From Longimicrobium sp. (GTDB taxonomy: Bacteria > Gemmatimonadota > Gemmatimonadetes > Longimicrobiales > Longimicrobiaceae), in contig DASVTZ010000110.1 of the NCBI GenBank assembly GCA_036387335.1, positions 1-64,000 of the forward strand: 64,000 nt of DNA, in the 5' to 3' direction. The notes beneath the pieces were generated by a model, which was not told the DNA's origin, did not search any database, and saw only the letters and a list, made by a program, of their open reading frames with translations. The position numbers and the translations under genes were made by a program. Of this stretch, positions 1-13,181 are shown one piece after another (position 1 is the first letter of the stretch; every line of letters starts with the position of its first letter).

Positions 1-505
1 CGCGCCATTCCGGCGGGGCCTGCGGATGCGCGGCGTCCATCTCCTCCAGCGCCAGGTAGGTGGCGAGGTAGCCCGCGCGCTCCATTCCCGCCAGCGCGGC
101 GCCCGGCTGCGGAAGCGACGCCAGCATCCGCTCGTGCTCCGCGGCGCGGGCGCGGGCGGCGGCGGCCACCTCCGCCCAACCGGGAAGCGAGCGGAGCGAG
201 GCCAGGTCCGGGTCGCGCTCCAGCAGCAGGTCGTAGCCTTCGAAGCCGGCGTCCAGCGCGCGGCGAAGGAGCGCCAGCGCCTCGGGCGCGCGGCCGGCCA
301 GCGCCGCGCTGCACGCCGCGTTGTAGAGGTCCAGCGCCGAGGGTGAGGGCATGGCGGCGAGGCGGAGGTAGAGAGCGGCCGACGCCGGGTAGTCGTGCCG
401 GCCGTACGCCTGCGCGGCGGCGCTCCGCAGCGAGTCCGCGGACTGCGCGGCCAGCGGCGCCGCGCACAGCAGCAGGGCGGCGAGCGCCGCGACGGTCTTC
501 TTCAT
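1..505 (-). CDS. Secreted TPR-like protein, partial at left window edge
   Basis: Only the first 168 codons lie in the window. The ATG at 505 opens with a clear Sec signal peptide (MKKTVAALAALLLCAAPLAA, then QS). The mature part has alanine-rich helical repeats of TPR type, including an ALxLLRRALDAGFE-like segment followed by a DPDLASLRSLPGW stretch that is common in secreted TPR proteins. It starts 14 bases after the HlyD stop, so it is probably the last visible gene of the RiPP transcription unit. Its role there is unknown; a periplasmic scaffold or an immunity-related protein is possible but only a guess. Confidence 0.75.
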   Translation of the reverse strand, partial: MKKTVAALAALLLCAAPLAAQSADSLRSAAAQAYGRHDYPASAALYLRLAAMPSPSALDLYNAACSAALAGRAPEALALLRRALDAGFEGYDLLLERDPDLASLRSLPGWAEVAAAARARAAEHERMLASLPQPGAALAGMERAGYLATYLALEEMDAAHPQAPPEWR

Positions 506-519
506 CGGTGATGCTCCCC

Positions 520-2568
520 TCAGTCTGTACCGGAGCCGAGGACCTGGTCGAAGAGGCGGGCCACCAGGCGGCGGTCGCGCGTCACGATCTCTGCGTCGCC
601 GCGCATCTCCTGCCGGAAGGGGAGGCGGCGGCGGTAGGTGGTCACCAGGTCCTGTGGCACTTCCACCTCCACCAGGTACTGCGTCTCGTCGCTGTCCCGC
701 TTCTCCATGGCGAGTTGCGAGACTCGCGCCACCCGGCCCGCCACCGCCCCGAACTCGCGGGAGGGGAAGCTCTCCAGCCGCAGCAGCACCCGCTGCCCCA
801 CTTCCACCTTGCCGGCGCCGGCGGATGCCAGGAGCACGCGCCCCACGGCGCGCCCGCCCTCGGGGACGATGGCGAGGAGCGGCGCGCCCTGCTCCACGAA
901 CTGGTGCTCGGCCAGCGCGCGGAAGTTGGACACGCGCCCGGCGGAGGGCGCCCGCATCACGTTCTCCTGGTCCCACCGGGCCACGGCGCCGCGCAGGGTG
1001 GCGAGCGCCGCGCGCAGCGCCAGTCCCTGGTTGCGCCCCATGTCCTCCATGGACCTGCCCAGCTCCAGAAGCTGCGAGCGCGAGGCGGAGATCTGCACGT
1101 CGGCCGCGGCCACGGCGCTCTCCCCGTCCTGCATCGCGGAGCGGCGCTGGAGGTACTCGGCCTCCGCGCGCTCGGCGTCGGCCTCGGAGATCAGGCCGCG
1201 CGAGGCCATGGCGCGGGCACGGTCACGGTCGCGGCGGGCGAGATCCAGCTGGTCCGCCTGCACGCGCTGCTTGGCCGCCGCGTTGGCGCGCACCACCTGC
1301 TGGTCGCGGATCTGCTGCTCCACCTCCGCCACGCGCCGCGCGTCGTACCCCGCGGCGGACGATGCGCCGCGGTCGGAAAGGCTCTGCAGGAACGCCGCGT
1401 AGGCGGGGTGCAGGTCTCCCAGGCTGAGCATGGGGTCGAACGAGGCGGCGATGCGCCCCAGGTCGCCTCCCAGCTCACCCTCCACCTGCTCCAGCCGGCG
1501 CGAGAGCGCGAACACGTCCTCCCAGCGGGCGGAGCTGCGCAGCACCAGCAGGGGGGCGCCGGGCTTCACCCGCTCGCCGTCGCGCACGAAGAGGTGGGCC
1601 ACCTCGCCGCTCACGCGCGGCACCAGGCGCACCGGGGGCTCGGGGGTGGTGAGCACCACTTTGCCGCTCACCACGTCCGGATAGCGCACCAGCCAGCCCA
1701 CGGCGAAGAGCATGGCCACGGTGGCGAACACCAGCGTCGTACCCCAGCGCACCAGCCAGTGGGGGATGAAGCCGATGATCTCCTGCAGCTCCTCGCTGCG
1801 CAGGTTGAGGTCCGGCTCCGCGTCGGAGTCCGCCGGCTCGGAGCGCGCCGGGAGCGGGCGTGCGCTCGCTACCGGTACGGGCGCCGGCGCTTCGGGCTCC
1901 GCGGAGTCGTGGGGCGACGACAGGTCGATGCGGTGCGCGCCGGCCACCAGGTGCCTGCGGCCTCGGGCATCGGTCTCCACGCGCGCGGAGCGGGCCTCGG
2001 CGGGGGTGAGCACGACGCCGGGGAGCGGGGTGCGCTCGCCCGCGTGCAGCAGCACCGTCTGCCCCGCGTCGTCCTTGAGCACGATGGCCGGCTCGCTGCG
2101 CGTCTCTACCACCGGGGGGGCGGAGGCGGCGGGCGGGGCGGCGATCACCACCCGGTTCGGCCCGGCCACCAGGATGTGCCGGCCCGAGTCGTCCACCAGC
2201 ACGCGGGCGGCGGCGGCCTCCTGCGCCGTGAGCGAGAGCGGCGCGATCTCCACGCGGCGCCCGTCGAACGACACGTACGTGCGTCCCGTGGCGTCCGCCT
2301 CCACCCGCGCCAGGTGGCCGCCCAAGAGGCTCAGGTCGGGCGCCGCCGCCTCGGGGGGAGCGTCGCCCGCCGGGAGCGGGATCTCCTCGGCGCCCAGCAG
2401 CAGCACCCGGCGGCCGTTCTGGTCCTCCGCCACGCGAGCCTCGGGCACCGCCCCGCCGCCGTGCAGGCCGGGAAGGGGAATGCGCTGCATCCCAAAGACG
2501 AGCACCCGGTGCCCGGCACCGTCCACCACCACGCGGATCCCGCCGGCGGCCGTTCCGTTCGCGGACAT
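520..2568 (-). CDS. HlyD-family membrane fusion protein with N-terminal repeat domain (peptide exporter subunit)
   Basis: A 682-residue periplasmic adaptor protein, expected to link the adjacent C39-peptidase ABC exporter to an outer-membrane channel. I chose the ATG at 2568, four bases after the exporter stop; an in-frame TTG at 2583 would overlap the exporter. Residues ~10-240 hold about six imperfect ~40-residue repeats with the pattern V-x-x-D-x-x-G-R-x-x-L-V-x-G-x-x-R-I-x-L-P. One transmembrane helix follows (LVFATVAMLFAVGWLV), then the biotinyl-lipoyl-like strand (SGEVAHLFVRDGERVKPG), a long coiled coil and the C-terminal beta domain typical of bacteriocin HlyD proteins. The repeats are not part of a usual HlyD protein, which is about 400-450 residues. 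They would lie on the cytoplasmic side if the single helix has the standard orientation. Confidence 0.9.
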   Translation of the reverse strand: MSANGTAAGGIRVVVDGAGHRVLVFGMQRIPLPGLHGGGAVPEARVAEDQNGRRVLLLGAEEIPLPAGDAPPEAAAPDLSLLGGHLARVEADATGRTYVSFDGRRVEIAPLSLTAQEAAAARVLVDDSGRHILVAGPNRVVIAAPPAASAPPVVETRSEPAIVLKDDAGQTVLLHAGERTPLPGVVLTPAEARSARVETDARGRRHLVAGAHRIDLSSPHDSAEPEAPAPVPVASARPLPARSEPADSDAEPDLNLRSEELQEIIGFIPHWLVRWGTTLVFATVAMLFAVGWLVRYPDVVSGKVVLTTPEPPVRLVPRVSGEVAHLFVRDGERVKPGAPLLVLRSSARWEDVFALSRRLEQVEGELGGDLGRIAASFDPMLSLGDLHPAYAAFLQSLSDRGASSAAGYDARRVAEVEQQIRDQQVVRANAAAKQRVQADQLDLARRDRDRARAMASRGLISEADAERAEAEYLQRRSAMQDGESAVAAADVQISASRSQLLELGRSMEDMGRNQGLALRAALATLRGAVARWDQENVMRAPSAGRVSNFRALAEHQFVEQGAPLLAIVPEGGRAVGRVLLASAGAGKVEVGQRVLLRLESFPSREFGAVAGRVARVSQLAMEKRDSDETQYLVEVEVPQDLVTTYRRRLPFRQEMRGDAEIVTRDRRLVARLFDQVLGSGTD

Positions 2569-2572
2569 GGCG

Positions 2573-4822
2573 TCAGCTCCCAAGCTCGAGTTGGTTCTTC
2601 ACCAGCGTGTAGTAGTGGCCGCGCAGCGCGGCGAGATCTTCGTGCGTGCCGCGCTCCACCACGCGCCCGCGGTCCAGCACCACGATCTGGTCGGCGTTCT
2701 TCACCGTGCTCAGCCGGTGCGCCACGATCACCACCGTGCGCCCGCGGAACTCGTCCTGCAGCCGCCCCATGATCGCCTTCTCGTTGTTGGCGTCCAGCGC
2801 GCTGGTGGCCTCGTCGAACAGCAGGTACTTGGGCTGCTTGTAGACGGCCCGGGCGATCAGGAGGCGCTGCTTCTGCCCCTGGCTCATCCCCAGCCCGTCG
2901 CGGCCCACGCGCGTGTTGTAGCCCAGAGGCAGCGTTTCCACGTACTCGCGGATGTTCGCCACCGTCACCGCGTGGAGGAGGCGGCGCTGGTCCACCGTGT
3001 CCTCGCCCACCGCGATGTTCCCCGCGATGGTGTCGGAGAAGAGCTGCCCGTCCTGGAGCACCGCGCCGCACTGGCTGCGCCAGCTGCGGGCCGAGAGGGT
3101 GCCCAGGGCGCTCCCCCCCACCGCGATGTCGCCGCGCGACGGGTTGTAGAACTTCAGCAGCAGCTTAAGCAGCGTCGTCTTTCCGCTCCCGCTGGCGCCC
3201 ACGATGGCGGTCACCTTGCCGTCGGGGATCTCCATCTCCACGTCCTTGAGCACCTCCTCGCCCAGCGCGCCGCCGTAGCCGAAGCCCACGCCGCGCAGCG
3301 AGATGGAGCCTTCCTCCGGCAGATCCACGATCTTCTCGCCCGGCTCCTCCTCGTCCGGGTGCCCGTGCAGCTCGCCCAGCCGCTCGGCCGAGATGCGCGC
3401 GTCCTGCGCGTTGTGCACGATGGCGACGAGCTGCCCCAGCGGGCCGTTGAGCTGGCCCAGGATGTACTGCACCGCCAGCAGCATTCCCAGCGTCAGCTCG
3501 CCGTCGATCACCAGCTTGGCGCCCAGGAAGGTGATGAAGATGTTCTTCATCTCGTTGATGGCGATGGAGCCGCCGTCCTCGAACTGGCCGAGCGAGAGGG
3601 ACTTGAGGTTCACGCGAAAGAGCCGCGCCTGGATGCGCTCCCACGCCCACCGCTTCTGCTGCTCCGCGTTGGCCAGCTTGATCTCGCTGATCCCGCCCAC
3701 CAGCTCCACCAGCGCGCTCTGCGTGCGGGCCTGCTCCGCGAACTTCTGGTAGTCCAGCTCCTTGCGCCGCTTGAGGAAGAGGAGCGAGTACACCACGTAG
3801 AGCGCGCTCCCCACCGCGAACACCCCAAAGATTGCCCAGCTGTACACCGCCAGCACCACGCTGAACACCGTCAGCGTCATTACCGAGAAGAGCGTCTGCA
3901 GGATGGTGCCGGTAAGGAACTGCTGGATGCGGGTGTGGTCCTGCACACGCTGCAGGATGTCGCCCACGTGGCGCGTGTCGAAGAAGGGGACCGGCAGGCG
4001 CAGCAGCTTGGCCAGGAAGTCGGATATGATGGAGACGTAGATGCGCGTCCCCACGTGGAACAGGATGCGATTGCGGATGAACTCCACCGACGTGCGGCTG
4101 GCGAGCAGCGCGAGCTGCGCCAGCAGCACCACGTTCACGAAGCCGATGTCCTGGTGCCCGATCCCATGGTCCACCAGCGCCTGCGTAAGGAAGGGGAAGA
4201 CGAGCTGCAGCAGGCTCGCCACCATCATCCCCAGCGCCACCTGCGTGAACAGACCGCGGTAGCTGCGCACGTAGCCCAGCAGGAAGCGCAGGCCGGCGCG
4301 GCTGTTGTCGCCCGCGTCGTCCTGCTCGTAGAACGCCGGCGTGGGCTCCAGCAGCAGCGCCACGCCGCGGTCGCTGGCGGCACCTCCGTCGTGGAGCCAG
4401 CCGCGCGTGAACTCCTCGTGCGTGTAGCTGAGCTCGCCGTCGGCGGGGTCCGCCACGTACACCCGGTCGCGCGTCACCCGGTGCACCACCACGAAGTGGT
4501 TCTGCCGCCAGTGAACGATGCAGGGAAGAGGCGCCTCGCCCCCCAGCGCGGCCAGCGTGGTGCGCACGGAAAGGGTGCGGAAGCCCACCGCCTCGGCCGC
4601 GTAGGCGATGCCCAGCAGCGAGACGCCGCCGCGGTCGATGCAGGCGCGCGCCCGCATCTCGCGCTGGCTGAAGCGCTTGCCGTGGTGGCTGGCCACCATG
4701 CGCACGCAGGTGGGGCCGCAGTCCATCGCGTCGAACTGGCGGAGCGAGGGAAAGGTGGGCTTCAGGCGCGGGCGGGCGCGCAGTATGGAGGAGGACATTC
4801 GAAGGCGGGGTCGCGGGGTCAC
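2573..4822 (-). CDS. Peptidase C39-containing ABC transporter (leader-cleaving peptide exporter)
   Basis: A 749-residue protein that should cut precursor leaders after Gly-Gly and export the core. The N-terminal C39 domain shows Gln29, Cys35 (in DCGPTC), His109 (QNHFVVVH) and Asp125 (VADPADG), the expected oxyanion and catalytic residues. A six-helix ABC membrane domain follows. The ATPase domain begins around residue 490 with Walker A GASGSGKTT, signature MSQGQKQR, Walker B YLLFDEATSALD and the switch histidine IVAHRLSTV. The start is GTG at 4822, one base after the upstream stop; an ATG at 4798 is an alternative. Neighbouring precursors with an IKGG junction are the obvious substrates. All catalytic motifs are intact. 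Confidence 0.93.
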   Translation of the reverse strand: MTPRPRLRMSSSILRARPRLKPTFPSLRQFDAMDCGPTCVRMVASHHGKRFSQREMRARACIDRGGVSLLGIAYAAEAVGFRTLSVRTTLAALGGEAPLPCIVHWRQNHFVVVHRVTRDRVYVADPADGELSYTHEEFTRGWLHDGGAASDRGVALLLEPTPAFYEQDDAGDNSRAGLRFLLGYVRSYRGLFTQVALGMMVASLLQLVFPFLTQALVDHGIGHQDIGFVNVVLLAQLALLASRTSVEFIRNRILFHVGTRIYVSIISDFLAKLLRLPVPFFDTRHVGDILQRVQDHTRIQQFLTGTILQTLFSVMTLTVFSVVLAVYSWAIFGVFAVGSALYVVYSLLFLKRRKELDYQKFAEQARTQSALVELVGGISEIKLANAEQQKRWAWERIQARLFRVNLKSLSLGQFEDGGSIAINEMKNIFITFLGAKLVIDGELTLGMLLAVQYILGQLNGPLGQLVAIVHNAQDARISAERLGELHGHPDEEEPGEKIVDLPEEGSISLRGVGFGYGGALGEEVLKDVEMEIPDGKVTAIVGASGSGKTTLLKLLLKFYNPSRGDIAVGGSALGTLSARSWRSQCGAVLQDGQLFSDTIAGNIAVGEDTVDQRRLLHAVTVANIREYVETLPLGYNTRVGRDGLGMSQGQKQRLLIARAVYKQPKYLLFDEATSALDANNEKAIMGRLQDEFRGRTVVIVAHRLSTVKNADQIVVLDRGRVVERGTHEDLAALRGHYYTLVKNQLELGS

Positions 4823-4823
4823 G

Positions 4824-5885
4824 TCAGCGCGCCGCGGCGGGCGCGCTGGCGGGGAAGGGGGCGGGGTCTCCGCCCCACTCCGCCGTATACGGGTCGTAGC
4901 TGCAGCGGGCCGGCTTGCTGAGGGCGTCGGCGGGGTCGCGCACCCAGGCGCGGCAGTCGGTGCACACGTAGCGGAACTCGCAGTCGCGGCACGTCGCCAC
5001 CTGGTCCTTGGTCACTCCCCAGTGCTGGCGGAAGCCGTCGGCCTCCAGCGCGGTGGCGAGCGGCACCCGCGCCGCGTTGCCGAACGCGCGGGGCATCGAC
5101 GGGCAGTTGCGGATCTCGCCGTACTCGTCTACCGAGATCTTGCGGTTGAGGCACGAGTTGGCCGTGCTCGCCTCGGTGAATGCGCCCATGTTGACGGCGA
5201 AGACGGCCGGGTGCACCTGCCCGCAGTGCGAGTGGTGGTCGATCGCCTGCGTGGTGTAGTGCACCGGCGTGTCGCCCCGCCTGAACTCCTGCGTGCGCCC
5301 CTGGGGGGCCGAGTGCACCAGCATGGACGACACGCGCTGGTGGCGGAACACCAGCTCCGCCATCTCCTGCGCGCTCCACTCGTCGGACCAGGGAAAGACC
5401 ACCTCGATGGTGCGCAGGCGGCTGCCGGCGGCCTCGGCCAGCGCCGCGTCCAGCCGGGCGAGCGGCCACGGGGCGAACACGCGCAGCTCCAGCGCCCGGC
5501 ACCCCAGCCCGTCCAGCTGGCGGACCAGCGAAGCGAAGTCGTGGTCCGATGCGGGGCCTACGTCCACGATGGCGTTGCTCACCAGCCCCGGGTGGTCCCA
5601 CGAGAGGTCCAGGTCGGGAAAGGCGTCCGGGTCGTCGCACCAGAAGCCCAGCTCGTTTTCCAGGAGGAAGGTGAAGTACTCCTCCAGCGTCTCGGCCGCG
5701 GCGGGCCCGTAGATGCAGCGCAGCTCCGCCAGTGTGCGTCCGCGCCCCGCCGTGACCACCTCGTGCAGCCCGTTGGGGACGGGGTGCACGCGGCCGCGCT
5801 GCAGGTCGCAGATGGTGCTGCGCCGGGCGCCGCGCACGGGAACGCAGTTGGCGAACAGCACGAACGGCTTGTCTTCGTGGAGCAT
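4824..5885 (-). CDS. gwsS: SPASM-domain peptide maturase, grasp-with-spasm type
   Basis: A 353-residue protein whose C-terminal third is cysteine-rich: Cys in HSHCGQ, NSCLNRK and RNCPSMP, a CRDCEFRYVCTDC cluster, and a last Cys in ARCSYDPY. This is the layout of a SPASM iron-sulfur domain. I see no CxxxCxxC radical-SAM motif in the N-terminal half. This agrees with my recollection that GwsS-type proteins of grasp-with-spasm loci are SPASM proteins without the canonical radical-SAM motif. The gene starts four bases after the small upstream gene and is followed within one base by the exporter, so it is co-transcribed. The chemistry is unknown; it may be a leader-binding or redox partner of the ATP-grasp enzyme rather than a true radical enzyme. 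Confidence 0.8.
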   Translation of the reverse strand: MLHEDKPFVLFANCVPVRGARRSTICDLQRGRVHPVPNGLHEVVTAGRGRTLAELRCIYGPAAAETLEEYFTFLLENELGFWCDDPDAFPDLDLSWDHPGLVSNAIVDVGPASDHDFASLVRQLDGLGCRALELRVFAPWPLARLDAALAEAAGSRLRTIEVVFPWSDEWSAQEMAELVFRHQRVSSMLVHSAPQGRTQEFRRGDTPVHYTTQAIDHHSHCGQVHPAVFAVNMGAFTEASTANSCLNRKISVDEYGEIRNCPSMPRAFGNAARVPLATALEADGFRQHWGVTKDQVATCRDCEFRYVCTDCRAWVRDPADALSKPARCSYDPYTAEWGGDPAPFPASAPAAAR

Positions 5886-5889
5886 GGCG

Positions 5890-6099
5890 TCACACCTCCA
5901 TGCCGACGCAGCGGGAGATCGTCTTGTAGAAGCCGGCGCAGCCGTACACCTGCGCGCGGTGCCAGTCGCTGTGCGCGGTGCGCGTGACCTCGGGGGGCGT
6001 GGGCGCCACGCGCAGGTAGCCGTACGCCAGCGGCACCGCCGCGGGGTCGCTCGCCAGGCCGGCGATGGCCGGCGGGGGGGTGGGGTTCTCGGCGCTCAC
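5890..6099 (-). CDS. Small 69-residue protein of the RiPP operon, unknown function
   Basis: The ATG overlaps the ATP-grasp stop by four bases (ATGA), and the SPASM gene starts four bases downstream, so it is translationally coupled inside the maturation operon. The protein has a proline/alanine-rich N-terminus and a C-terminal half rich in aromatic residues (SDWHRAQVYGCAGFYKTI), with two cysteines about ten residues apart. It has no signal peptide and no double-glycine leader, so it does not look like a fourth precursor. A partner or adaptor for the maturases, or an immunity peptide, is possible. I do not recognise the family. Confidence 0.65.
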   Translation of the reverse strand: MSAENPTPPPAIAGLASDPAAVPLAYGYLRVAPTPPEVTRTAHSDWHRAQVYGCAGFYKTISRCVGMEV

Positions 6100-7079
6100 T
6101 GGGCCTCCGTGCGGATCAGGTACTCGGCGACGCGCCGGTACAGCGGGTAGTTGCAGGGCTCCGCCACCATCGCGAACTGCCCCACCGGGTTCACTTCAAG
6201 AAAGACGTGCCGCCCGTCCGGCGTGCGGATCAGGTCCAGCGACCCCGTCTCCAGGCGCATCTCGGCCATGAAGCGGTGCACCGCCGCTTCCACGTCCGCC
6301 GGCAGGCGGTAGGGGACGTTGCGGTTGGGGTGGACGTGGTTGTAGAGGCGGAAGTCCACCGCGGTCTGCTCGTCGGCCTGCGAGAAGATCGCCATCGGCC
6401 AGCACTCGCCGTCCAGGTAGAAGACGCGCAGCTCGCAGTTCTTTTCCACGCGCGCCTGCAGCAGCGAGGGGAAGAAGGCTTCCGGAAGCGCGAGCGCGTC
6501 GTCGCGGGTCACCACCGAGGTGTAGGTGGCCCAGCTTCGCCCCTCTTCGTCGGGAAACATCTCGCCGTCGCTGGCGCACTTGGTGATGGCGTCGCCGTGC
6601 TCGTCGATGAAGGCCAGCACCTCGGCGCGCTGGTTGGTCACCAGCGTTTCGGGGATCTCCAGCCCGGCGCGCCGCGCGAGCCGCAGCGCGCGCACCTTGT
6701 TCACGGCCACGGGGCGGGAGAGCCAGGGCTGCTCCTCCATCAGCGCGAACACGGACTGCGAGACGGCGTGGACCTCGGAGGCCAGGTGGCGCTGCGCCAG
6801 CTGCCGGAGCTCGGGCGTCGTGTCGGGCAGGGCTCCCACCCCACGCAGCGTGTGCCACCGGCGCCGCCACACCGCGCCGACCTCTGCGCCGCCGATCTCG
6901 CGGCCGCCCACCTGCAGCCGCAGGTCGTCGCGGCCGGGGCCCAACCGCACGGCGAACGCGCCGCCCTCGGTGAGGTCTTCGCCGTTCAGGCGCGTGGCGT
7001 CGCCGCCCAGGTGCTCGATCCAGTCCTGCACTACGTCGGTGGTGGCCTCGTACGCCGCCTGGCTCAAAACCAAGATCAT
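6096..7079 (-). CDS. gwsG: ATP-grasp peptide ligase (graspetide-type, grasp-with-spasm)
   Basis: A 327-residue ATP-grasp enzyme related to the microviridin ligases, expected to join acidic side chains of the precursor core to Ser/Thr hydroxyls (ester) or Lys (amide). I chose the ATG at 7079 because MILVLSQAAYEATTDVVQDW is the usual start of this family; the upstream in-frame codons are low-complexity. The C-terminal half has the ATP-grasp metal and nucleotide core: SLLQARVEKNCELRVFYLDG, then GSLDLIRTPDGRHVFLEVNP and GQFAMVAEPCNYPL, with the metal-binding E and N in LEVNP. It lies downstream of three precursor genes and overlaps the next small gene by four bases. Confidence 0.88.
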   Translation of the reverse strand: MILVLSQAAYEATTDVVQDWIEHLGGDATRLNGEDLTEGGAFAVRLGPGRDDLRLQVGGREIGGAEVGAVWRRRWHTLRGVGALPDTTPELRQLAQRHLASEVHAVSQSVFALMEEQPWLSRPVAVNKVRALRLARRAGLEIPETLVTNQRAEVLAFIDEHGDAITKCASDGEMFPDEEGRSWATYTSVVTRDDALALPEAFFPSLLQARVEKNCELRVFYLDGECWPMAIFSQADEQTAVDFRLYNHVHPNRNVPYRLPADVEAAVHRFMAEMRLETGSLDLIRTPDGRHVFLEVNPVGQFAMVAEPCNYPLYRRVAEYLIRTEAQ

Positions 7080-7210
7080 CGTTCGCCGCTGCGCTGCATG
7101 GGTTTTCCGGCTCGCGCGGCAAGTGCCCTGGGCCCACTGCCCGGGGTGCCACGCGTATGAAATCAGTAAGGAGTGTCGATTGATCGGGCTGATTGTGTTG
7201 AGTCCGGGGG

Positions 7211-7240
7211 GTGGAGAGAGGGCCGGAGTCCCCTCTCCAC
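7211..7240 (-). terminator. Stem-loop between precursor 1 and the ATP-grasp gene
   Basis: The arms at 7211-7222 and 7231-7240 pair (right arm CCCTCTCCAC, left arm with a short bulge). There is no U tract. A similar G/A-rich hairpin follows precursor 2 and a degenerate one follows precursor 3, which supports a functional role such as mRNA protection or attenuation. Confidence 0.45.
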
Positions 7241-7262
7241 CATCCGAAGAACCTCGTTGTCG

Positions 7263-7296
7263 GGCGGTGGCGGCACGGCGTGGTGCCGCCACCGCC
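7263..7296 (-). terminator. Strong stem-loop immediately after precursor 1
   Basis: A perfect 14-bp GC stem (arms 7263-7276 and 7283-7296) with a 6-base loop, 8 bases beyond the precursor 1 stop codon. No U tract follows, so it is more likely a partial terminator or an RNA-stability element that keeps precursor mRNA more abundant than enzyme mRNA. This is inferred from position. Confidence 0.55.
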
Positions 7297-7304
7297 GAGC
7301 CGTG

Positions 7305-7508
7305 TTACGCCAGCTGCGTCGACGGCTGCTGCGGCGCCGGGCTCTCGTCGGTGAACACGTCCTTGTCGAGGCCGATGTACTGGCCGTTGACCCACGTGTT
7401 GCTCCACACGGTGCTGGAGGTGGCCTGAGCCAGCCCGCCCTTGATCGCGGCGGCTTCGGTGGTGCTCATCGGGGCGAACAGGTCGTTCTTGAGGGACTCG
7501 AGCTTCAT
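7305..7508 (-). CDS. RiPP precursor peptide 1 (graspetide-type, double-glycine leader)
   Basis: A 67-residue peptide. The leader MKLESLKNDLFAPMS... ends in IKGG at residues 24-25, the cut site for the C39 exporter, leaving a 42-residue core. The core holds a Ser/Thr-rich segment (TSSTVWSNTW), then NGQYIGLDKDVFTDE, then a Pro/Gln tail. Possible cross-link partners are hydroxyls at core positions 5-13 and 28 and Lys24, against acids Asp23, Asp25, Asp29 and Glu30; the linkage pattern is not known. The start is chosen by conservation with two paralogues and an AGGAG ribosome site within a palindromic GGAGATCCTCC before the ATG. It is nearest to the ATP-grasp gene. Confidence 0.9.
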   Translation of the reverse strand: MKLESLKNDLFAPMSTTEAAAIKGGLAQATSSTVWSNTWVNGQYIGLDKDVFTDESPAPQQPSTQLA

Positions 7509-7767
7509 GGGAGGATCTCTTGGTACGGTGGTGTGAAAGGTGGCCGCGGTCGCGGCCGGGGGGTACTGCAATGTTTTACAGCGGGACGTGTGAAATGATG
7601 GATTGTCCAACACCATGATCGAGTAATTCGCGCCACCGCCCGTCGCTCGGCATGCGGCCGCGCTATCGAGCGTAGTGCGGCCCGGCGCGCCCCGCTGGCG
7701 GAGATCAGCGCGCGAGAGGAAACACGGAAAGAAAAGTAAATTTAGTCCGATTGTATTTTTGGGTAGT

Positions 7768-7797
7768 GTGGAGGGGAGACCTGCGCCTCCCCTCCAC
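7768..7797 (-). terminator. Stem-loop after precursor 2
   Basis: A perfect 11-bp stem (GTGGAGGGGAG with CTCCCCTCCAC) around an 8-base loop, about 60 bases beyond the precursor 2 stop. It resembles the hairpin at 7211-7240. It lacks a U tract on the minus strand, so a role in RNA stability or attenuation is as likely as termination. Confidence 0.5.
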
Positions 7798-7856
7798 CCG
7801 GGAGCCTTCAGAGAGCGGTGGCCGCGGTTGCGGCCGTACTACAGGGTGCTGATGTG

Positions 7857-8060
7857 TTACGCGAGCTGCGTCGCCGGCTGCTGCGGGGCCGGGCTCTCGT
7901 CGGTGAACACGTCCTTGTCGAGGCCGATGTACTGGCCGTTGACCCACGTGTTGCTCCACACGGTGCTGGAGGTGGCCTGGGCCAGCCCGCCCTTGATCGC
8001 GGCGGCCTCGGTGGTGCTCATCGGAGCGAACAGGTCGTTCTTGAGGGACTCGAGCTTCAT
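7857..8060 (-). CDS. RiPP precursor peptide 2 (graspetide-type, double-glycine leader)
   Basis: A 67-residue paralogue of precursor 1. It differs by one residue near the C-terminus (QQPATQLA instead of QQPSTQLA); leader, IKGG cleavage site and the rest of the core are the same. The ATG at 8060 has the same palindromic ribosome-site region and the same GC-rich 5' leader as its two neighbours. Such close identity at the DNA level points to recent tandem duplication or gene conversion. Expected fate: modification by the ATP-grasp/SPASM pair, cleavage after Gly25, export. Confidence 0.9.
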   Translation of the reverse strand: MKLESLKNDLFAPMSTTEAAAIKGGLAQATSSTVWSNTWVNGQYIGLDKDVFTDESPAPQQPATQLA

Positions 8061-8488
8061 GGGAGGATCTCCTGGTACGGTGGTGTGAAAGGTGGCCGCG
8101 GTCGCGGCCGGGGGGTGCTGCGTGGGGGTACCTGCCGGCTCCGGACGAGAGCCTGTCGCAAATATCAGTTTACGGCAGACGCGACTGCGTGGTAAAACCT
8201 CATCCGTAGCTATTTCTCTGCGCGCCAGGCAGTACGCGGGGTCGGAAGCACGGCGGCGCGGTGAAAACCTACCGCGTTTTCGTGGTCCGGTGGCCGGCGC
8301 GTGGCGATTCCGGGGAACTATCCCGGCTGCCTCACGCCCGCAGAGTGTTCGAACAACGTCTCTTTCGGTGATTGCGGAATGTGGAGAGGAGGAAGTGGCA
8401 CCTCTCCGCCCGGCGAGCCTCTGGAGAGCGGTGGCCGCGGTTCGCGCGGCCAGGGTACTGCGGTTGCGCTGCTGGTACGGCGAGCTGC

Positions 8489-8686
8489 TTACGCCTCGGA
8501 CGGCTTGACCGGGGCGGGGCCTTCGTCGGTGAACACGTCCTTGTCCAGGCCGATGTACTGGCCGTTGACCCACGTGTTGCTCCACACGGTGTTCGAAGTG
8601 GCCTCGGCCATTCCGCCCTTGATCGCGGCGGCTTCCGTGGTGCTCATGGGTGCGAACAGTTCGTTCTCGAGGGACTCGAGCTTCAT
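8489..8686 (-). CDS. RiPP precursor peptide 3 (diverged graspetide-type copy)
   Basis: A 65-residue, most distal and most diverged copy. The leader reads MKLESLENELFAPMS..., the IKGG junction is kept, and the core keeps TVWSNTWVNGQYIGLDKD and FTDE, but it begins MAEATSN and ends EGPAPVKPSEA. All four central acids (Asp23, Asp25, Asp29, Glu30), Lys24 and most Thr/Ser positions are conserved across the three copies, marking them as the likely cross-linking residues. Position 7 is Asn here and Ser in the other copies, so it cannot be an essential hydroxyl acceptor. It lies closest to the predicted promoter and so would be first in the transcript. Confidence 0.88.
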   Translation of the reverse strand: MKLESLENELFAPMSTTEAAAIKGGMAEATSNTVWSNTWVNGQYIGLDKDVFTDEGPAPVKPSEA

Positions 8687-8776
8687 GGGAGGATCTCCTG
8701 GTACGGTGGTGTGAAAGGTGGCCGCGGTCGCGGCCGGGGGGTACTGCGTGGGGGGTCCCTACCGGCTCCGGACGAT

Positions 8777-8805
8777 AGTTTACGGGAAACATCTATTCCT
8801 GTCAA
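8777..8805 (-). promoter_or_regulatory. Predicted sigma-70-type promoter for the RiPP operon
   Basis: On the minus strand, TTGACA (8805-8800) and TAAACT (8782-8777) are separated by 17 bases. The expected transcript start near 8770 leaves a leader of about 85 bases before precursor 3. A TAAACT also occurs upstream of precursor 2 (near 8182-8177) but without a convincing -35 box. Confidence 0.6.
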
Positions 8806-8948: not shown

Positions 8949-10796
8949 TCAGAAGCCGCTACCGCCCCCGCCGCCGCTCCCGCCGCCGCTCGACCCGCCG
9001 CCGCCCGAGCCGGACCCGGACGAGCTGGGGCTGGACGACATCGTGCTCCCGGCCGTGCTGGACATGGCGCTCATCCGCTGCGAGAAGCCGGTCGCGTGGA
9101 AGTGCCCGGTGCCGGTGCCGCGGTACCACTGCGGCGGCTCGCGGTAGATGTCTTCGAAGGCGCGCGCCCAGCGGCCCTCCACGCCGAAGGCCATGGCGTA
9201 GGGCAGGAAGCGCTCGAACATCTCCGGCGAGGTGATCATCCGCTTGTAGCGCTCGCTCTCCACGCGGCTCAGGAACTCGCGGAAGCCCAGCGCGCCCTCC
9301 CGCGCCCGCGCCCCGGCCGGGGTGCGCGCCGGCATGATGCGCGAGAAGATGAAGACGATGATGGCGCTCGTCACACCGCCGAGCGCCAGCGCGCCCGCCG
9401 ACACCCAGGAGATCGTGGAATCGAATGCGATGAAGGCGCCCACCACGCTGACGATGAGCACCGCGAACGACATCCCCAGCCACAGGTTCTTCACCTTGTC
9501 TGGCCGGCGCAGGTAGTAGCCGCGCTCCACCAGGTTCGCGTACAGCGCGTCGCGGATGCCGGGGAGGGACGTGTAGAACTTTTCGGAGAGATCGGACAGC
9601 ATCACCGATTCGCTGCCACCGCGCGCGCGGCGTCGGCGCGGGTGATCCGGCTCGTCGCCCGAAGCGTGGGCGACGGCGCGCAGCTCTTCCCAGCTCTCCT
9701 CCGACTCCTCGGCGTCCTGGAAGAGCGCGGTCAGGTAGAGCCGCTCGTGCTCCGCAAGCTCGCTCCACTCGTCGCGCGGGCGGCGCCGATAGAACGTGTA
9801 GTCGGTGCTGGTGAAGAGGCCCATCAGCTTCTTCTCCGTCGTCTCCTCGATCCCGATGTAGCCGCGCACCGCCATGTCCACCAGCGTGGAGGTGATGTCG
9901 CGCATCTCGGCCGTGTGATCGACCAGCGTCCCCACCTCGGCGGGGGTCATGGCTTCGGGCGGCTCGTACTGGACGACGATGGACTCCTCCTGCGGATCGC
10001 GCCCCCGCCGGCGCCACGCACGGAAGCTGAGCCCGAACGCCAGCAGCGGCAGGGCGAGCGGCCACAGGCGCACCATCTCCGCGGTGCGGTGCGCCTCGTC
10101 GCTGGGGCGCGTGGCGACGAAGCCCGGCGGCCATCCCACGCCGACCGTCACTCCCTCAAAAGGCGCCAGCGGACGAGTAGAGGCGAACTCCACCCCAGTC
10201 TCCGTCACGCGCGACTCGCCGTTGGAGCCGGCGAGCGTGGTCCCCTCCGCGCCCGTGTACACGGCCACCGGACCCGCCCGCGCGCCGGCGGGGAGCACCA
10301 CGCGGCCGTGCACGCGGTCGATCGGCATGTCCCACTGGCTGCCGGTCACGTTCCAGTACAGCTCGTCCAGCGGCCCCGTCTTGCTTCCGTCGTAGAAGAA
10401 GCGGATCGCGTTGGCCACGTGGTAGCGGATCACCACCTGCCGGTCCGCGTCGCGCGCGCCGGGGATGTAGATGCGCAGGCGCTTGGTCCACCCGTCCTCG
10501 AGGTCCGTGGTCTCCACGCGCATCGCCTTGCCGTCGCCATCGGTCACGGAGGTGACCTCCAGGTCGAGCACCTCCTTGCGCCCCTCGCCGGTCACGTGGC
10601 GCAGCAGGAGGTCGCGGTTCAGCCCGTTCCACTCGCCCGTGAAGCCGATGGTGAGCCGCTCGGTGACGTCCAGCTCGCCGTCGCGCCCCACCGTCAGGAG
10701 CGCGTCGAAGTCGCGGATGCGGATGGAGCGCTCCTGCGCGTGCAGCGGCGCCCCGAGGGCGAGGAGTATCGCCCCGAGCGCGAGCAGGCGGCGCAT
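8949..10796 (-). CDS. DUF2207 domain-containing membrane protein
   Basis: A 615-residue protein with a signal peptide (MRRLLALGAILLALGAPLHA). An extracytoplasmic DUF2207 N-terminal domain (RIRDFDALLTVGRDGELDVT; later GEWNGLNRDLLL) covers roughly residues 20-240. A transmembrane helix follows around 260-280, then a cytoplasmic region and two more helices around 440-490. The C-terminus is a glycine/serine tail ending SGGGGGSGF, a known feature of this family. Function is unknown. It overlaps the upstream LemA gene by one base (TGATG); the two families often occur as a pair, so they probably act together at the cell envelope. Confidence 0.85.
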   Translation of the reverse strand: MRRLLALGAILLALGAPLHAQERSIRIRDFDALLTVGRDGELDVTERLTIGFTGEWNGLNRDLLLRHVTGEGRKEVLDLEVTSVTDGDGKAMRVETTDLEDGWTKRLRIYIPGARDADRQVVIRYHVANAIRFFYDGSKTGPLDELYWNVTGSQWDMPIDRVHGRVVLPAGARAGPVAVYTGAEGTTLAGSNGESRVTETGVEFASTRPLAPFEGVTVGVGWPPGFVATRPSDEAHRTAEMVRLWPLALPLLAFGLSFRAWRRRGRDPQEESIVVQYEPPEAMTPAEVGTLVDHTAEMRDITSTLVDMAVRGYIGIEETTEKKLMGLFTSTDYTFYRRRPRDEWSELAEHERLYLTALFQDAEESEESWEELRAVAHASGDEPDHPRRRRARGGSESVMLSDLSEKFYTSLPGIRDALYANLVERGYYLRRPDKVKNLWLGMSFAVLIVSVVGAFIAFDSTISWVSAGALALGGVTSAIIVFIFSRIMPARTPAGARAREGALGFREFLSRVESERYKRMITSPEMFERFLPYAMAFGVEGRWARAFEDIYREPPQWYRGTGTGHFHATGFSQRMSAMSSTAGSTMSSSPSSSGSGSGGGGSSGGGSGGGGGSGF

Positions 10797-11350
10797 CAGA
10801 AGCGGACCGCGGGGGTCGCGCGCTCGGCCTCGGCGGCCTCAAAGAACTCGCGCTCGTGGAAGCCCATCGGCCCGGCGAGCAGGTTGGAGGGGAAGGTCTG
10901 CACGGCGGTGTTGAGGTCGCGCACCACCGCGTTGTAGTAGCGGCGCGAGTCGCTGATCTTGTCCTCGGTGTCGGAGAGCTGCGTCTGCAGGTCGAGGAAG
11001 CTGGCGGAGGCCTGCAGCTCCGGGTAATCCTCCACGGCGACGGTCAGCCCCTGGAGCGCACTGCTCAGCGCGGCCTCGGCCTCGGCCCGCTCGGCGGGGC
11101 CGGCACCGCTCGCCGCGACGGCGCGCGCGCGTGCGGCGGTCACGGCCTCAAGCGTGCCGCGCTCGTGGCCGGCGTATCCCTTCACCGTCTCCACCAGGTT
11201 CGGCACTAGGTCCGCGCGCCGCTTGAGCTGCACGTCGATGTCGGACCACGCGTTCTGCGACGTGACCCGCAGCTTCACGAGCCGGTTGTACATCCCCACG
11301 ATCAGGAACGCAATCACGACGCCGACTGCGAGGACGATCAGGATGGTCAT
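10796..11350 (-). CDS. lemA: LemA family protein
   Basis: A 184-residue membrane-anchored helical protein. The start is the ATG at 11350, giving the N-terminal helix MTILIVLAVGVVIAFLIVGM followed by the family signature YNRLVKLRVTSQNAWSDIDV and QLKRRADLVPNLVETVKGYA. Upstream in-frame codons are low-complexity and unlike the family. The rest is long amphipathic helices ending in NLLAGPMGFHEREFFEA. The function of LemA proteins is not established. It is translationally coupled to the downstream DUF2207 gene. Confidence 0.92.
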   Translation of the reverse strand: MTILIVLAVGVVIAFLIVGMYNRLVKLRVTSQNAWSDIDVQLKRRADLVPNLVETVKGYAGHERGTLEAVTAARARAVAASGAGPAERAEAEAALSSALQGLTVAVEDYPELQASASFLDLQTQLSDTEDKISDSRRYYNAVVRDLNTAVQTFPSNLLAGPMGFHEREFFEAAEAERATPAVRF

Positions 11351-11484
11351 GCTTGGGCTCCGGGGGGGGTGGGGGTACGGCAGGATGAGGTGTGAAGCGC
11401 AAGGTAGTGCCAGACGCGCCCCCTGCACAGCTTCATCGACGCGCGTCGTGCACGCGGGGGGATCAAAAAACCGGGAATAACCGT

Positions 11485-11496
11485 TATATTGTGGGA
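11485..11496 (+). promoter_or_regulatory. -10-like box directly before the ABC-F start codon (possible leaderless mRNA)
   Basis: TATATT at 11485-11490 ends five bases before the ATG at 11496, so a transcript starting at the usual distance would begin at or next to the start codon. There is no ribosome-binding sequence in between. The -35 region is weak. Confidence 0.4.
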
Positions 11497-13181
11497 TGAT
11501 CTCCGTATCCAACCTCGAAAAATCGTTTGGCGACCGCGTCCTCTTCCAGGATGCCGCCTTTCAGCTGAACCCGGGCGAGCGCTACGGCATCGTGGGCGCC
11601 AACGGGTGCGGCAAGACCACGCTCCTCAGCATCCTCAGCGGCGACGCGGATGCCACCAAGGGCTCCGTCTCGATCCCCAAGTCGGCCCGGCTGGGCGTGC
11701 TGCGCCAGGACCAGTTCCTCTACGAGAGCGAAACGATCCTGAACGTCACGCTCATGGGCAACCCGGAGCTGTGGCGGGCGATGGTGGAGAAGGAAAAGGT
11801 GCTCGCCAACGCGCACGAGTACTTCGACGCGGACCGCTTCAGCGAGCTGGAAGACACGGTCATGCGCCTGGACGGCTACACCGCCGAAGCGCGCGCCGCC
11901 GTCATCCTGGAGGGGCTCGGCCTACCCGCCGAGATCCACGACAAGCCGCTGTCGACGCTTTCCGGCGGCTTCAAGCTGCGCGTGCTGCTGGCGCAGGTGC
12001 TGGCCGGCAGCCCGGACGTCCTCCTGCTCGACGAGCCCACGAACCACCTGGACATCCTCTCCATCCGCTGGCTGGAGAAGTTCCTCCACGACTTCGAGGG
12101 CCCGGTCGCCGTGATCTCGCACGATCACCGCTTCCTGGACAACGTAGCCAGCTACATCCTGGACGTGGACTACCAGACGGTCACGCTTTACAAGGGGAAC
12201 TACTCGGACTTCCTGGAGCAGAAGGTGGAAGACCGGGAGCGCAAGGAGAAGGAGATCGAGGGGCGGCAGAAGGAGATCGCCCATCACCAGAAGTTCGTGG
12301 ACAAGTTCAAGGCCAAGGCGAGCAAGGCCCGGCAGGCGCAGAGCAAGGCCAAGATGATCGAGCGCAAGGTGGAGGAGATGGAAGAGCTCCCCGGCTCGTC
12401 GCGCCGCTACCCCAAGTTCCGCTTCAACCAGCGGCGGGAGAGCGGCAAGGAAGTGCTGCGCATCAAGGGCGTGCGCAAGTCGTTCGGCGACAAGGAAGTC
12501 CTCCCCGGCGTCGACCTGGAGGTGCGCCGCGGCGACCGCATGGTCATCATGGGGCCCAACGGGATCGGGAAGTCCACGCTGCTCAAGATCGTGATGGGCG
12601 AGCTGGCTCCGGACCAAGGCGGGGTGGAGTGGGGGTACGAGGCGCAGCGCAGCTACTTCGCCCAGGACCACCACGAGCAGCTCGAAGACCAGGAGGGCAC
12701 CGCCGAGCAGTGGCTGTGGGGCTTCTGCCCGGACAAGGACCGCGGCTTCGTGCGCGGCCACCTGGGGATGATGCTCTTCAGTGGCGACGACGGCGAGAAG
12801 CGCCTCAGCGCCCTCTCCGGCGGCGAGGCGGCGCGGCTGGTGTTCAGCAAGATCGCGCTGGAGCAGCCCAACGTCCTGGTACTCGACGAGCCCACCAACC
12901 ACCTGGACCTCGAGTCGATCGAGGCGCTGGTGGCGGGGCTGCAGAGCTACGAGGGCACGCTGATCCTGGTGAGCCACGACCGGTGGTTCGTCGCCCAGCT
13001 CGCCACCCGCGTGGTGGAGATCAGCCGCGCCGGCATCCGCGACTTCCTGGGCACCTACGAAGAATACGTCCACTCCTGCGGCGACGACCACCTGGACGCA
13101 GACGCCGTCGTGCTCAAGGCGCGCCAGGAAGACCGCAAGGGCAAGCAGCAGGGCGAGAAGCGGGAGCTGGCGGGCCGCTGA
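11496..13181 (+). CDS. ABC-F family ATP-binding protein
   Basis: A 561-residue soluble protein with two ABC ATPase domains and no membrane segment. Domain 1 has Walker A VGANGCGKTT, signature LSGGFKLR and Walker B LLLDEPTNHLD. Domain 2 has GPNGIGKST, LSGGEAARL and VLDEPTNHLD. A charged linker around residues 240-300 (EGRQKEIAHHQKFVDKFKAK) is the P-site tRNA interaction motif region. ABC-F proteins act on ribosomes as translation factors or antibiotic-protection proteins. The absence of long extensions suggests a housekeeping type like YbiT or YkpA. A strong terminator follows at 13209, so it is probably monocistronic. Confidence 0.92.
   Translation: MISVSNLEKSFGDRVLFQDAAFQLNPGERYGIVGANGCGKTTLLSILSGDADATKGSVSIPKSARLGVLRQDQFLYESETILNVTLMGNPELWRAMVEKEKVLANAHEYFDADRFSELEDTVMRLDGYTAEARAAVILEGLGLPAEIHDKPLSTLSGGFKLRVLLAQVLAGSPDVLLLDEPTNHLDILSIRWLEKFLHDFEGPVAVISHDHRFLDNVASYILDVDYQTVTLYKGNYSDFLEQKVEDRERKEKEIEGRQKEIAHHQKFVDKFKAKASKARQAQSKAKMIERKVEEMEELPGSSRRYPKFRFNQRRESGKEVLRIKGVRKSFGDKEVLPGVDLEVRRGDRMVIMGPNGIGKSTLLKIVMGELAPDQGGVEWGYEAQRSYFAQDHHEQLEDQEGTAEQWLWGFCPDKDRGFVRGHLGMMLFSGDDGEKRLSALSGGEAARLVFSKIALEQPNVLVLDEPTNHLDLESIEALVAGLQSYEGTLILVSHDRWFVAQLATRVVEISRAGIRDFLGTYEEYVHSCGDDHLDADAVVLKARQEDRKGKQQGEKRELAGR

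Follow-up and report, generated by a model that had tools for sequence, protein, structure and literature searches.

A grasp-with-spasm locus in the Gemmatimonadota

Does a short run of genes at the end of a Longimicrobium contig encode a working graspetide pathway outside the Bacteroidota, and if so, what does its SPASM protein do? The DNA analysed here, referred to as the window, is a 64,000-nt stretch of contig DASVTZ010000110.1 (contig C110 of genome G000, a 5.8-Mb assembly). Read along the minus strand from 8686 to 520, it carries three precursors with double-glycine (GG) leaders, an ATP-grasp ligase, a 69-aa protein of the LPL family, a SPASM protein, an ABC exporter with a C39 peptidase and an HlyD adaptor (Table 1). 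Going by sequence, we consider it probable that these genes form a working grasp-with-spasm graspetide operon, in which the SPASM protein would hold the leader, the ATP-grasp enzyme would form esters and the C39 exporter would cleave and export the product. The original prediction, which had described precursors, ATP-grasp, SPASM, C39 and HlyD genes in this order on a single strand, was borne out, with all of these parts intact. Its description of the locus as complete holds for the parts that it named, but a further gene beyond HlyD is truncated by the start of the contig, and the conserved LPL-family gene had been overlooked.

Judged by its sequence, the locus is a true grasp-with-spasm locus, because the ATP-grasp and SPASM proteins both exceed the cut-offs of their diagnostic models. 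The search against TIGR04192 and TIGR04193 that had been proposed as a check gave 241.7 bits for the ATP-grasp enzyme (cut-off 230; 243.5 bits in another search) and 296.3 bits for the SPASM protein (cut-off 175). Nor does the ATP-grasp protein cluster with an unrelated ligase family, an outcome that would have told against the prediction: its nearest relatives in the PDB are the microviridin and chryseoviridin ligases (5ig8, 5ig9, AMdnB and CdnC; E 1.7e-29 to 1.4e-22), and it keeps both the metal-site motif FLEVNPVG and, within QTAVDFRLYN, the DFR motif that is critical in graspetide synthetases (PMC13097080). RimK and MvdC/D were also considered as its ligase family and were ruled out by score, the MvdC and MvdD models falling far under their cut-offs. 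With the microviridin and chryseoviridin systems the locus shares the DFR motif and would share the logic of joining Thr/Ser to Asp/Glu; its leader motif and core differ; to our knowledge, their clusters contain no SPASM or LPL gene.

The closer likeness is to the grasp-with-spasm systems of the Bacteroidota, which have the same ATP-grasp and SPASM families above cut-off, upstream precursors with GG leaders, C39-ABC and HlyD genes, and an LPL-type small gene between those for ATP-grasp and SPASM. From these the window differs in its Gemmatimonadota host, its new core family and an HlyD protein with N-terminal repeats. The Bacteroidota systems (TIGR04192/TIGR04193) make up branch 5 in the survey of Makarova et al. 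2022 (PMC8939145), a branch described as highly specific for that phylum and numbering 190 loci there. Grasp-with-spasm systems, including that of the window, are likely to be graspetide group 14 of Carter et al. 2026, which has a SPASM protein in all members and is mentioned without a characterised member (PMC13097080).

The host had rightly been placed outside the Bacteroidota, being Gemmatimonadota and Longimicrobiaceae-like, but the surprise attached to its phylum was overstated: named genomes with full-length relatives, mostly Bacteroidota, also include two Acidobacteriota and one Aminicenantes metagenome-assembled genome (MAG). The nearest named locus lies in MAG RYN_364 ('Gemmatimonadetes bacterium'), with a SPASM protein 82% identical to that of the window. 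Within the window's family, eight grasp-with-spasm loci are spread over six of 21 genomes, and among 395 evenly drawn Gemmatimonadota genomes no other family had a locus above cut-off. Weak TIGR04193 matches elsewhere in the phylum (most of the 77 genomes, out of the 395, that matched) cover the SPASM region alone, far under cut-off, and were not counted as members; genome G016 (locus L029), with a distant ATP-grasp protein (60 bits) and no SPASM partner, was likewise rejected and kept as an outgroup. The ATP-grasp tree unites the Bacteroidota in one group (85/83) and places the Gemmatimonadota sequences outside it, so that a recent import of the locus from Bacteroidota is not supported, the support values being moderate.

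The precursors and their core family

The three precursors lie within 268-nt direct repeats (97% and 87% identity to the reference copy) and are therefore a tandem family, not chance open reading frames (ORFs). In every copy an AGGAG- or AAGAG-like site precedes the ATG by about 10 nt, GG falls at residues 24-25 and the core is devoid of Cys, and the leaders share the motif LESL...[LMI]F.P[LM]. No NCBIfam precursor model matched them, and PF14406 did so only at E 0.034; tblastn of the window's own genome found no additional precursors of this kind outside the array, the remaining matches having E values of at least 0.8.

The core, TVWSNTWVNGQYIGLDKDVFTD, had been proposed to be unlike any known graspetide core. 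Its counterparts, in the searches made, were confined to three genomes of this family: the window's own (G000), G003, with TVWSNTFLNGTYIGNDKDIFTD, and G015, with TIFSNSYVNGTYIGPDKDTFTD and TIFSNSYVDGTYIGNDKDTFTD. Together they define the pattern T[VI][WF]SN[TS]..[ND]G.YIG.DKD.FTD. Eight residues (T33, S36, T/S38, D48, K49, D50, T53 and D54) are conserved in all six precursors from these genomes and comprise every possible link donor and acceptor, while eight of the 14 other core positions are variable. Both precursors of G015 terminate exactly at FTD, and the Pro-rich tails of the window precursors therefore seem, from this comparison, to be dispensable.

These data also bear on whether the locus might be a decayed or silent remnant that yields no product. 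The small share of genomes in the family with such loci (6/21) would be in keeping with this. Against it, the ORFs of the locus are all intact, with GC content at third codon positions of 0.89-0.99; the only difference between the core copies in the window is a synonymous change; gene order and core family recur in two other genomes; and a promoter-like site precedes precursor 1. We regard decay as very improbable. The genes are also closely spaced, with a 4-nt overlap between the end of the ATP-grasp gene and the beginning of the following one (6096-6099). The upstream site, TTGACA-17-TAAACT, came from a consensus scan that returned two sites against 0.3 in shuffles, and is as a promoter a lead only.

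Further loci of the family carry yet other cores, a variety that fits the extreme diversity of precursors beside similar ligases reported for branch 5 (Makarova et al. 2022, PMC8939145). A second array in G003, downstream of HlyD (L023:16952-18521, plus strand), consists of six precursors with like leaders and six different cores, several of which have D-x-D-x(3)-D after an [ND]G turn; it is apparently served by one ATP-grasp enzyme. Each precursor copy in the window is flanked on both sides by near-palindromic elements of the type CCGGCCGCGACCGCGGCCACC (7530-8735, minus strand), which may possibly act as RNA hairpins for processing or attenuation.

The SPASM protein and the proposed cyclase

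In its predicted layout, the SPASM protein has a domain like a RiPP (ribosomally synthesised and post-translationally modified peptide) recognition element (RRE) at residues ~7-82, a half barrel at 104-191 and a SPASM domain with eight invariant cysteines at 221-328. The two auxiliary Fe-S clusters of a SPASM domain call for seven or eight cysteines. In alignment A3, which covers 31 loci from Gemmatimonadota, Acidobacteriota and Bacteroidota and includes window positions 4824-5885, the eight cysteines are present in 31/31 members. The CxxxCxxC cluster motif, in contrast, is absent: C-x(2-4)-C-x2-C occurs in the first 230 residues of none of the 31. Pfam searches of the same proteins returned PF13186 in 24 and no radical-SAM match in any at E up to 10; they gave no RRE match at the N-terminus of the window protein. 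No relative of the SPASM protein was found in viral contigs.

The AlphaFold2 model of this protein (pLDDT 91, pTM 0.84) consists of strands at 7-36, helices at 38-76 and a strand at 80-82, followed by strand-helix units at 104-191 and the SPASM part. The N-terminus is thus modelled as strands followed by three helices, which is the element order of an RRE, and the middle as (βα)3β, about half a barrel. Because the SPASM profile had no sequence relative in the PDB, a fold search was performed, and the matches at E <= 0.001 were four chains, of CteB and TigE only (E ~3e-4, probability 0.99-1.00, TM by query length 0.36-0.45). We take these two radical-SAM/SPASM RiPP enzymes to have an RRE, a radical-SAM barrel and a SPASM domain. 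The window protein resembles them in its SPASM end and, as modelled, in a putative RRE-like start, but is without the radical-SAM cluster motif and has about half of the barrel gone. We infer from these results that the region for the radical-SAM cluster was lost in this family, and that leader binding and the Fe-S sites were retained; on this view, the protein would be better described as an iron-sulfur partner holding the peptide leader than as a radical enzyme.

Makarova et al. 2022 call the SPASM protein of branch 5 a radical SAM enzyme (PMC8939145), SPASM domains are usually found on radical-SAM peptide maturases, and CteB and TigE are enzymes of that kind, all of which would favour active radical-SAM catalysis, by which the protein would tailor the ATP-grasp product with a further cross-link of a second kind (thioether, C-C or C-O). 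We consider this improbable, given a cluster motif missing from all 31 members, no radical-SAM Pfam match, a barrel only about half present in the model and cores that offer no Cys for a thioether.

The small gene upstream of the SPASM gene provides the third candidate component. In branch 5, the gene immediately upstream of that for SPASM encodes a small protein termed LPL (Makarova et al. 2022, PMC8939145), and the same position and motifs recur in loci of other phyla. The PL-type motif reads VPLAY in the window protein, which ends in FYKTISRC; the Acidobacteriota locus L044 also has an LPL gene (GFHKPISRC). Among small proteins in this position, 24 of 29 have a PL-type motif and 26 of 29 have K-x-[ILVF]-[ST]-[KRP] near the C-terminus. 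The latter motif is an observation of this analysis that we did not notice in the text of Makarova et al.

Taken together, the working operon could be envisaged as follows. The SPASM protein would hold the leader of each precursor through its predicted N-terminal RRE-like domain, serving as an Fe-S partner rather than a radical-SAM catalyst, and the LPL protein would bridge or activate the ATP-grasp enzyme. The latter would phosphorylate side-chain carboxylates and join them to hydroxyls. The simplest outcome would be a ladder of nested esters, three at most, which in precursor 1 would be T38-D48, S36-D50 and T33-D54, with K49 as an alternative nucleophile. The multicyclic depsipeptide of the original prediction is a candidate product. 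The C39 domain would then cleave after Gly24-Gly25, and the ABC/HlyD pair would export the product. All graspetides characterised by the time of the 2022 survey were protease inhibitors (PMC8939145).

It is also conceivable that the leader is recognised by the ATP-grasp enzyme itself, with the SPASM and LPL proteins acting at a later stage, such as transfer to the exporter. Microviridin-type ATP-grasp enzymes bind their own leader, and the leaders here share the LESL...[LMI]F.P[LM] motif. This alternative nevertheless appears unlikely, if less so than radical-SAM catalysis: an RRE-like fold is predicted on the SPASM protein, in every phylum seen the LPL and SPASM genes are neighbours of the ATP-grasp gene, and the microviridin-type leader motif is reported to be absent from branch 5 (PMC8939145).

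Several points weigh against the operon working as proposed, with the SPASM protein as leader-holding partner. Ester formation, the ring pattern and the requirement for the SPASM protein are all inferred, from sequence, and we found in the literature no characterised product or known chemistry for the grasp-with-spasm group. The proposed ester ladder is not centred on the NG turn, so that another ring pattern is quite possible. The ratio of nonsynonymous to synonymous substitution (dN/dS) on the core is uninformative. With TM scores of 0.36-0.45 to CteB and TigE, the domain reading of the SPASM protein depends on the order of secondary-structure elements and a partial superposition.

A broader proposal, which we advance tentatively and hold at somewhat less than an even chance, is that in all grasp-with-spasm systems the SPASM protein would be a leader-binding pseudo-enzyme (RRE-like domain, half barrel and Fe-S SPASM domain), not a radical-SAM enzyme, and would form an obligate three-protein cyclase with the LPL and ATP-grasp proteins, the leader-binding and enzyme-activating roles being split between the precursor and an LPL protein acting in trans. 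The operon model set out above, for its part, has a precedent for a partner essential to a graspetide synthetase in rosaritide, where MirB requires MirC, one domain of which is weakly RRE-like (PMC13097080); MirC differs in having a SurA-like domain and in not being a SPASM protein.

Export, neighbouring genes and meaning for the family

The exporter has Peptidase_C39 fused to an ABC transporter, with PF00664 and PF00005 above cut-off; its best NCBIfam model, NHLM_micro_ABC1, stayed under its cut-off. The HlyD protein begins with six units of about 35 residues, V..D..GR..LV.G..RI.LP (residues ~10-225; window 1890-2541, minus strand), which lie before the membrane segment and should therefore probably be cytosolic. 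G015 likewise has six units, and G003 has eight. In a search of 21 genomes the repeat was confined to HlyD proteins from YIG.DKD-type loci (G015, outside that draw, also has it), so that the repeats travel with this core type. No Pfam family matched the repeat domain above cut-off, and its model (pLDDT 64, pTM 0.31) reads as six three-strand units, for which no fold is claimed. As speculation, the repeats are perhaps a dock for cargo or cyclase.

A secreted TPR-like protein is encoded downstream of HlyD in two genomes, that of the window and that with locus L028, where the intact relative has 538 aa and a weak Tiki/ChaN-like stretch; we include it in the locus tentatively. Directly upstream of the locus, a DUF2207 membrane protein gene lies beside one for a LemA-family protein (window 8949-11512, minus strand), and these seem to bear no relation to it.

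Table 1. Features of the grasp-with-spasm locus, in window coordinates
Feature	Position	Strand	Evidence
Promoter-like TTGACA-17-TAAACT, upstream of precursor 1	8777..8805	-	consensus scan
Precursor 1, 65 aa, leader MKLESLENELFAPMSTTEAAAIKGG, core MAEATSNTVWSNTWVNGQYIGLDKDVFTDEGPAPVKPSEA	8489..8686	-	ORF; own-genome tblastn; tandem repeat family
Precursor 2, 67 aa, core LAQATSSTVWSNTWVNGQYIGLDKDVFTDESPAPQQPATQLA	7857..8060	-	own-genome tblastn
Precursor 3, 67 aa, one residue different from precursor 2 (A/S, tail)	7305..7508	-	own-genome tblastn
ATP-grasp peptide maturase, 327 aa	6096..7079	-	TIGR04192; PDB neighbours; motifs
LPL-family small protein, 69 aa, GTG start overlapping ATP-grasp stop	5890..6099	-	motifs VPLAY, FYKTISRC
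SPASM protein, 353 aa	4824..5885	-	TIGR04193 296.3 bits, cut-off 175
ABC exporter with N-terminal C39 peptidase, 749 aa	2573..4822	-	PF03412 2.8e-30
HlyD-type adaptor with six-fold N-terminal repeat	520..2568 (or TTG start at 2583)	-	PF13437 (HlyD_3) 4.8e-14
Start of secreted TPR-like protein, truncated by contig end	1..510	-	intact relative in L028

What is new here is another phylum and a new core family; the grasp-with-spasm type of system is already known. The radical-SAM tailoring step assumed in many known loci becomes a question, namely whether the SPASM protein is an enzyme or a leader-binding partner of the cyclase, and this doubt over its role applies to the whole family. A graspetide branch described as highly specific to the Bacteroidota extends to further phyla, and its Gemmatimonadota members offer a compact, conserved core family that is available for testing.

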